Shown: positions 52,422-54,872 of the stretch, piece after piece
Position numbering within the stretch: position 1 is the stretch's first letter
Layout of the letters: each line of letters opens with the position of its first letter
Assembly: GCA_009841165.1 (NCBI GenBank)
Contig: VXMI01000156.1
Location: 1 to 64,000 of the forward strand
DNA length: 64,000 bases
Source of the DNA: Gemmatimonadota bacterium
GTDB taxonomy: Bacteria; Gemmatimonadota; Gemmatimonadetes; Longimicrobiales; Gaopeijiaceae
Direction of reading: 5' to 3'
Notes under the pieces: generated by a model
What the model saw: only the letters and a program-made list of their open reading frames with translations
Database searches by the model: none
Told to the model about the DNA's origin: nothing
Made by a program: the position numbers and the translations under genes

Positions 52422-52463
52422 AAAAAAGGGTCTGCCGGACGGCCGAAACCGCCCCGCAGACCC
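52422..52463 (-). terminator. Intrinsic terminator of the peroxiredoxin gene
   Basis: On the minus strand GGGTCTGC and GCAGACCC form an 8-bp stem (52456-52463 with 52428-52435), directly followed by six T (52427-52422). It lies 45 bases beyond the peroxiredoxin stop, as expected for rho-independent termination, and separates it from the peptide operon. Confidence 0.85.
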
Positions 52464-52508
52464 TTCAGAACGAGGGCCGGAGGGATGAAATCCGGGCGCG
52501 AAGTCCCT

Positions 52509-53129
52509 CTACAGCGCCTTCAGCACCTCCAAAACGTCCTCGTTCGTCGGCCGGACCCGATAGTCCACCTCCACGAACCGGTATCGCACGACGCCTTCCT
52601 TGTCGATCACGTAGGTCGCGGGGTGGGGAAGCGGGCGGTTGGGGGGCGCATCCGGGTTGAAGAGGCCGTATCGGTCGATCACCCGGTGGTCCGGGTCCGA
52701 CAGCATGATGAAGTCGGGCTCCACCCCGTCGTCGGCGGCCACGCGGTCGATCATCAGCTGCATGCCTTCACTGTCGTCCACGGATATGGTGACGATCTCG
52801 GTTTCGTCCGCGAGGTCGTCGGGAAGGAGTGCTCTCAGCTCCACGAGCTGACTGGCGCAGTACGGTCACCAGTGTCCGCGGTAGAAGACCAGGACAACGT
52901 TCTTCTCGCCACGAAAGCCCGCGAGGTCCACCGGGCCGCGGTCGAAGGAGTCGAGGGTGAAGAGCGGGGCTTCGTCGCCCAGCGCGACGCGCTCGATGTC
53001 GGTGGGCGGCAGGTCGTGTCCGTCCACGGGGCCGAGCGTCTGTGCCCGGGCGGATGCGGCGGTGAACGCGCCGACCGCGATCAGGGACAGGGCGCAGAGG
53101 CGGAGCAGGGAGGCAAGGGATCGTCTCAT
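52509..53129 (-). CDS. Exported peroxiredoxin-like selenoprotein with in-frame UGA (Sec88)
   Basis: From the ATG at 53129 the protein has a signal peptide ending A-R-A-Q (residue 30). A redoxin domain begins near G-D-E-A-P-L-F-T-L. The frame reaches F-Y-R-G-H-W then TGA at 52868-52866 and carries on P-Y-C-A-S-Q-L, followed by 115 residues of perfectly good redoxin sequence. Relatives have W-C-P-Y-C, so the UGA stands at the peroxidatic Cys. A hairpin with a GUG loop follows at SECIS distance. I read it as 206 residues with Sec88 and Cys91. The alternative is a Cys-to-stop mutation. It is divergent from asnB. Confidence 0.8.
52835..52851 (-). promoter_or_regulatory. Candidate bacterial SECIS hairpin
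   Basis: On the minus strand TCAGCTC and GAGCTGA form a perfect 7-bp stem with the 3-base loop GTG. The stem starts 14 bases after the UGA, and the loop lies 22-24 bases after it, within the range known for SelB-dependent elements, which need a short stem with G/U in the apical loop. A lower TGC/GCA pair could extend it across an internal loop. The hairpin is inside the coding sequence, as in all bacterial SECIS. Confidence 0.65.
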
Positions 53130-53207: not shown

Positions 53208-54872
53208 ATGTGCTCGGTCCTCGCCATCCTCGAAATCGATCCTCACGCCCCCTACCCGCGTGAACGCGCGCTGGCGTTGTCGAGGCTCCAGCAGCACCGG
53301 GGGCCCGACTGGTCGGGTGTCTTCGCCCACGACCGCGCACTCCTGGCGCACAACCGGCTGGCCATCGTCGACGTCGAGCACGGCGCTCAGCCACTGGAGA
53401 ACTCGGCCGGAACCCACGTGCTCGCGGTGAACGGCGAGATCTACAACCACCGGGTGCTGGAAGCGGAGCTCGCGGGATCATTCCGTCCGCGGACCCGCAG
53501 CGACTGCGAGGTGATCCTCGGGCTGTACGCCGAGCAGGGGAGCGGCTTCGTGGACCGCCTGAACGGGATCTTCGCGTTCGTGCTGTACGACGCCGAGCAG
53601 GATCGGTACATCGTCGCCCGCGACCACATGGGCATCGTTCCCCTCTACACGGGGCGCGACGACGAGGGGCGGTTCTTCGTCGCCTCCGAGATGAAGGCGC
53701 TGATGCCCGTCTGCCGCTCGGTCGAGGAGTTTCCGCCGGGGCACGTGCTGGATTCGGCGGACGGCAACGCCGTTCCGAAGCGCTACTACAAGAGGACATG
53801 GCGCGACTACGAGGCCGCCACCGCCGAACCCGACCCGGCCAGGATCCGCGAGGCGCTCGAAGCCGCTGTGCACCGCCAGCTCATGTCGGACGTCCCCTAC
53901 GGGGTGTTGCTCTCGGGAGGGCTCGACTCGTCGATCGTCTCGGCGGTCGCCCGGCGCTACGCGCGGCGCCGAATCGAGGACGACGACCGAAGCGAGGCGT
54001 GGTGGCCCCGGCTGCACTCGTTTTGCATCGGGCTGGAAGGGTCGCCGGATCTGGCCAGCGCCGCGACGGTGGCCGAGCACATCGGCACCGTGCACCACCA
54101 GTTCCACTTCACCGTCCAGGAGGGCCTCGACGCGCTCTCAGACGTCATCCACCACCTCGAGACCTTCGACGTCACCACCGTGCGCGCCGCCACGCCGATG
54201 TACCTGATGGCGCGGCGCATCCGCACACTGGGCATCAAGATGGTCCTCTCGGGAGAGGGGGCCGACGAGGTCTTCGGCGGCTACCTCTACTTCCACCGCG
54301 CCCCCGACCCCCGCGCGTTTCACGATGAGACGGTGAGGAAGCTCGACCGCCTTCACCAGTTCGACTGTCTGCGCGCGAACAAGGCGATGGCGGCGTGGGG
54401 CGTGGAGGCAAGAGTGCCGTTCCTCGACCGGGAATTCCTGGACGTGGCGATGTCGATCGACCCGGCGGCGAAGATGCCGGGTGGCGGGATCGAAAAGCGC
54501 ATCCTCCGCGAAGCGTTCGCTGACTATCTGCCCCCGGAGATCCTTTGGCGCCAGAAGGAGCAGTTCTCGGATGGCGTCGGCTACTCCTGGATCGACTCGC
54601 TGAAGGCGTTCGCCGAGGAGAGTGTGAGCGACCGCCAGCTGGCCAATGCGCGCTTCCGCTTCCCCTGGAATCCGCCCCCGGACAAGGAAGCCTACCTCTA
54701 CCGGAGGATCTTCGAGTCGCACTTCCCGCTGCCCGAGGCCGCCCGCTGCGTCCCCGGCGGCCCAAGCGTCGCCTGCTCGACCCCCGAAGCCCTGGCGTGG
54801 GACGAAGCGCTGTCGAGCACCATCGACCCGTCGGGGCGCGCGGTCGCGGGAGTGCACCGGTCCGCGTACTGA
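53208..54872 (+). CDS. asnB: Asparagine synthetase B (glutamine-hydrolysing)
   Basis: A 554-residue protein, the same length as E. coli AsnB. M-C-S-V gives the catalytic Cys after Met removal. The glutaminase half has R-G-P-D-W-S-G and N-G-E-I-Y-N-H. The synthetase half has the pyrophosphate loop L-L-S-G-G-L-D-S-S near residue 236, and S-G-E-G-A-D-E-V-F-G-G. It converts aspartate, glutamine and ATP to asparagine. The ATG at 53208 is chosen because the Cys must follow it directly. It is divergent from the selenoprotein gene with 78 bases between the starts. Confidence 0.95.
   Translation: MCSVLAILEIDPHAPYPRERALALSRLQQHRGPDWSGVFAHDRALLAHNRLAIVDVEHGAQPLENSAGTHVLAVNGEIYNHRVLEAELAGSFRPRTRSDCEVILGLYAEQGSGFVDRLNGIFAFVLYDAEQDRYIVARDHMGIVPLYTGRDDEGRFFVASEMKALMPVCRSVEEFPPGHVLDSADGNAVPKRYYKRTWRDYEAATAEPDPARIREALEAAVHRQLMSDVPYGVLLSGGLDSSIVSAVARRYARRRIEDDDRSEAWWPRLHSFCIGLEGSPDLASAATVAEHIGTVHHQFHFTVQEGLDALSDVIHHLETFDVTTVRAATPMYLMARRIRTLGIKMVLSGEGADEVFGGYLYFHRAPDPRAFHDETVRKLDRLHQFDCLRANKAMAAWGVEARVPFLDREFLDVAMSIDPAAKMPGGGIEKRILREAFADYLPPEILWRQKEQFSDGVGYSWIDSLKAFAEESVSDRQLANARFRFPWNPPPDKEAYLYRRIFESHFPLPEAARCVPGGPSVACSTPEALAWDEALSSTIDPSGRAVAGVHRSAY

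Follow-up and report, generated by a model that had tools for sequence, protein, structure and literature searches.

A Gemmatimonadota gene with a single in-frame UGA very probably encodes an exported selenoprotein with a thioredoxin-type active site

The window, i.e., the whole 64,000-nucleotide stretch of DNA that was analysed, comes from a member of the Gemmatimonadota, a largely uncultured group. Its minus strand holds, from an ATG at 53129 to a TAG at 52511-52509, a frame of 206 codons plus the stop (53129-52509) whose sole interruption is a TGA at 52868-52866. A further 118 codons lie 3' of that TGA, which itself supplies the ‘U’ of the motif FYRGHW-U-PYC. The initial annotation had described just such a single frame, and frame, coordinates, and motif are all confirmed. 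It had anticipated as well that an ordinary gene caller would split the gene, and standard open reading frame calling indeed yields exactly the predicted fragments, of 87 and 111 amino acids. With the TGA read instead as selenocysteine (Sec), the translation matches the AhpC-TSA domain (PF00578) at 93.1 bits, versus a cut-off of 26. A terminator-like hairpin plus T run is found just 3' of the full-length stop, that is, not just 3' of the TGA, and this hairpin is absent from the list produced by a simple terminator scan. Homologues of the divergently oriented asparagine synthase adjoin the gene in approximately 19 loci (L068-L086), i.e., in most members of the genus, and this conserved neighbour has no evident functional link to the selenoprotein. 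Matches from a plasmid search were all below 60% identity, the best covered of them being distant, at 33-36%. Coordinates are collected in Table 1.

Table 1. Features of the locus within the 64,000-nucleotide window, with the basis for each
Feature	Position	Strand	Basis
Complete selenoprotein coding sequence, 206 aa with UGA read as Sec	52509..53129	-	PF00578; conservation across Gemmatimonadota
TGA predicted to be read as Sec88 (U of UPYC)	52866..52868	-	Same codon is TGA in same-genus and distant loci
Cys91, second redox residue of UxxC	52857..52859	-	Aligns with peroxidatic Cys of peroxiredoxins
Putative SECIS hairpin UCAGCUC-GUG-GAGCUGA, 7 bp, 3-nt G-first loop	52835..52851	-	Comparative folding; suppressed synonymous variation
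Predicted signal peptide, cleavage after ASARA	53043..53129	-	Sequence and hydropathy
Probable intrinsic terminator, hairpin then T run	52425..52466	-	-34.6 kcal/mol, z -5.8
Asparagine synthase (glutamine-hydrolysing type), divergent neighbour	53208..54872	+	Pfam Asn_synthase, 303.6 bits

The gene is present, with one TGA and always at the same codon, in all 22 of the same-genus genomes searched. Named homologues carry TGA at this site in 39 cases (L068 to L106; L107, of the same series, is a C-terminal fragment) and in L110 and L119 as well. The near relatives among these are Gemmatimonadota metagenome-assembled genomes, many of which we take, from sample names, to be of sponge or marine origin. 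In a sample of 249 genomes from across the phylum a close homologue, i.e., one with E <= 1e-30, is found in 62, of which 60 have one in-frame TGA and two do not. Outside of the genus there are 42 such TGA-carrying genomes, with the active-site codon inspected in 38 of them; among loci from other genera and families that codon thus is TGA in 38 of 40 and TGC in the remaining two. All 60 of the TGA-carrying genomes encode selA, a match with a chance of roughly 4e-9 if genomes are treated as independent, i.e., with shared ancestry ignored. The two TGC genomes (G075 and G102), by contrast, are without selA, selD, and tRNA-Sec. Judging from the tree of homologues, these two may either have lost Sec or never have had it. 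More distant relatives, from gammaproteobacteria, Bacteroidota, and Bacillota (approximately 27-38% identity), have TGC or TGT at the site. The comparison of homologue codons which the initial annotation had proposed as a check thus finds TGA genus-wide and, among close homologues, TGC only in two genomes without selA.

A more distant AhpC/TSA paralogue with its own in-frame TGA, within RGRWUPYC, is encoded elsewhere in the same genome (L002; G000:C165:2473-2985, minus strand), has a similarly spaced hairpin of its own, GAGCA-GGC-UGCUC, and is found in several members of the genus. Betaproteobacterial records L110 and L119 hold UGA-containing homologues of approximately 40% identity, with a SECIS-like stem of their own that differs from the one described below.

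The machinery needed to read UGA as Sec was a further proposed check, and all four components searched for are present in the source genome. A tRNA-Sec with anticodon UCA scores 78.1 bits (cut-off 47) and selB 298.8 bits (cut-off 242), while selA is found as two pieces, both at contig ends, and is intact in most same-genus genomes. Also present is selD, at 380.5 bits and with an in-frame TGA of its own (G000:C206:14717-15640), as is the case too in nearly all of the relatives which have selD. Across the phylum sample 189 of 249 genomes, or about three quarters, encode selA, and selenocysteine use therefore looks like the norm in Gemmatimonadota. Genus g47, represented by the single-contig genomes G056, G075, and G102, is without selD and tRNA-Sec as well.

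An element common to the genus and its relatives, UCAGCUC-GNN-GAGCUGA, follows the UGA. It consists of seven pairs closing a three-nucleotide loop whose first position is G, with the loop found 21 nucleotides after the UGA; in a few of the distant members the stem is of 6 bp or the element is shifted. All 41 of the UGA homologues that were folded have a downstream hairpin, and Cys homologues generally lack one at the corresponding place. Within the stem, one C-G pair is changed to U-A, by a double change, in one Blastocatellia homologue, and the other inner pairs are invariant. Synonymous variation over codons +1 to +12 is 0.09 observed versus 0.49 expected, and across 23 species is zero at codon +4 and at codons +6 to +11, which is the lowest stretch of the gene; the Arg at +11, for example, is AGA in 22 of 22. 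Bacterial SECIS elements are expected directly downstream of the UGA and with a G among the first two loop positions, both as found here. Given conservation of the hairpin's position, along with an absence of synonymous variation exactly there, this hairpin is, as predicted by comparison, a bacterial SECIS. The weight of that assignment lies in the comparison because in one sequence alone the hairpin is unremarkable: it is not significant in single-sequence folding around the UGA, and approximately 15% of synonymous shuffles of the single gene do as well (P ~0.15). An Rfam search of the 64-kb window returned no match.

The N-terminus begins with charged residues, followed by a hydrophobic core and then ASARA-Q. 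All 39 of the UGA homologues checked have a hydrophobic segment at the N-terminus, and some of these segments look more like anchors or lipoprotein signals than like signal peptides that are cleaved. The protein is thus quite probably exported, and inspection of the sequence in this respect supports what the initial annotation had supposed.

Readings of the TGA which do not involve selenocysteine may be considered in light of these comparisons. The genome is a draft of 239 contigs, and one might suppose from this that the TGA arose through an error of sequencing, or indeed that the gene is a pseudogene. The same codon, however, is TGA in dozens of independent genomes, including the single-contig G001, G021, and G098, and purifying selection is equal on both sides of it. 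That is, among 23 species, using species pairs with dS of 0.05-1, the median dN/dS upstream is 0.193 and that downstream 0.192. Such equality excludes a dead 3' half, constraint downstream of the TGA showing no relaxation, which had been another of the proposed checks, and error or pseudogenization, as refuted by the comparative data, retains hardly any probability. The frame would also be open were TGA translated genome-wide as an ordinary amino acid, or were it read through without Sec. When the 64 kb were scanned by codon usage for in-frame TGAs having coding-like flanks, however, this TGA ranked first, at 0.26, with no other scoring nearly as well (0.15 or less). In addition, the homologue L015 itself ends in TGA, the adjoining Trp87 is TGG, tRNA-Sec and a SECIS are present, and the codon is TGC in genomes lacking selA. 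A changed code or Sec-independent read-through is accordingly about as improbable as an erroneous TGA. Insertion of Sec at the UGA would, judging from machinery along with sequence conservation, be almost certain. What is looked for in a selenoprotein, i.e., a conserved UGA at a redox residue, with Cys there in relatives lacking Sec, together with the machinery and with constraint downstream, is found here, and the suggestion that this is a functional selenoprotein is borne out by machinery, homologue codons, and downstream selection alike.

What kind of redox protein this might be is a separate matter. The initial annotation had placed Sec at the peroxidatic cysteine of a peroxiredoxin, and a true peroxiredoxin, with Sec88 attacking the peroxide and Cys91 as the resolving residue, has some appeal given the AhpC/TSA fold and given that the closest solved structures, AhpE, Bcp, and PrxQ, are of peroxidases; an AlphaFold model (mean pLDDT 83) likewise has AhpE and Bcp as its best structural matches. 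In alignments to AhpE, Bcp, and related solved peroxiredoxins, however, it is Cys91 that matches the peroxidatic Cys of AhpE, whereas Sec88 falls where PxxxTxxC has its Thr and Arg84 where that motif has its Pro. The catalytic Arg116 of AhpE corresponds to Pro170, the position of this Arg being confirmed by the R116A entry, 4xih. Neither PxxxT/SxxC nor the catalytic Arg, which together mark canonical peroxiredoxins, is thus retained. The proposed placement of Sec is therefore wrong and the plain label ‘peroxiredoxin’, given that Arg84, Sec88, and Pro170 replace signature residues, falls with it. Nor does the protein reach the cut-off of any NCBIfam peroxiredoxin model, the best being 41.8 bits versus 140. 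With Sec88 at the Thr position, Cys91 at that of the peroxidatic Cys, and Pro170 at that of the catalytic Arg, the predicted active site is of the thioredoxin type, i.e., a UxxC together with a Pro, within an AhpC/TSA fold. A diverged paralogue from the same genus (L056/L089, in G013) keeps Sec and has Ser as its second residue (UPFS). Because Sec is invariant even where Cys91 has become Ser, Sec probably is the main nucleophile. The same replacement is one that a 1-Cys-like peroxidase would allow, and a true peroxiredoxin, while much less improbable than a mistaken TGA, we nevertheless consider unlikely. Thiol oxidoreductase rather than peroxidase activity is the predicted direction, which we favour by a modest degree.

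The preferred reading, then, is that the gene very probably encodes a full-length, exported selenoprotein with a thioredoxin-type site, and it would operate as follows. The UGA at codon 88 would be read as selenocysteine by SelB along with tRNA-Sec, as guided by the downstream hairpin. A signal peptide would take the protein across the inner membrane, with folding as an AhpC/TSA thioredoxin-like domain. There Sec88 would serve as nucleophile, Cys91 could resolve via a selenenyl-sulfide bond, and Pro170 would stand in place of the cis-Pro of thioredoxin. The product most likely would act in the periplasm as a selenol-based thiol-disulfide oxidoreductase or reductase, might reduce peroxide too, and would be recycled by a thiol partner.

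Selenoproteins of this general kind have been described, that is, as Prx-like thiol:disulfide oxidoreductases of PF00578 with UxxC (PMC2398784, PMC9312934, PMC13188914). They were set apart in a Sargasso Sea survey by UxxC replacing the TxxU of Sec peroxiredoxin (PMC1088965), and have been called ‘Prx-like’ in that set and ‘Prx-like 1’ in GOS; WP_010940744.1 is one of the described representatives. As defined, the kind combines AhpC-TSA over its cut-off with UxxC (PMC1088965, PMC9312934), and the window protein has both. Also shared are Sec within a UxxC that replaces TxxC, a SECIS next to the UGA, and Cys homologues in organisms without Sec. The RGHWUPYC branch differs, comparing by description only, in having an export signal and in almost always having Sec in Gemmatimonadota. 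No NCBIfam model is matched at its cut-off. The SelL-related redox protein model (NF040769), for example, is similar in its AhpC/TSA-like fold and its UxxC/CxxC-type site, and is matched in part, but at 34.7 bits versus a cut-off of 120 the window protein is not a member. PrxU (NF040737) too is a Sec-containing AhpC/TSA protein, but its Sec is at the true peroxidatic position (TxxU) rather than at that of the Thr (UxxC), and the score is 27.7 bits versus a cut-off of 270. AhpE and Bcp/PrxQ (1xvw, 4xih, 3drn, 2cx3) are alike in fold and in overall alignment, at approximately 22-31% identity, but have the PxxxTxxC and catalytic Arg which the window protein is without.

The gene thus fits as an exported branch of the Prx-like PF00578 UxxC kind, one lacking both a name and an NCBIfam model, which is common in Gemmatimonadota. 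Whether it represents a distinct and as yet unnamed subfamily we see as evenly balanced. Such a subfamily would consist of exported, Sec-dependent thiol oxidoreductases, fixed for Sec in Gemmatimonadota, with Cys found only where Sec machinery is lacking, and would carry out selenium-dependent redox chemistry in the periplasm. A literature search found no description of a selenoproteome or selenoprotein for Gemmatimonadota, which is not proof of absence, and the passages searched in two papers on the phylum (PMC10469786, PMC11596202) contain nothing on selenoproteins. Genes such as this one are easily missed because gene callers split them, and adding the family to selenoprotein models would allow them to be annotated whole. 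The near-perfect match between UGA with Sec machinery, versus Cys without, in addition makes the family well suited to testing why Sec is retained.

Four contigs publicly labelled as Gammaproteobacteria (L094, L098, L103, and L104) carry the gene along with neighbours of Gemmatimonadota type. Horizontal transfer to Gammaproteobacteria was considered and rejected, as L103 matches a genome (G113) which groups within the window's own family, and the public names of these four contigs therefore are probably wrong.
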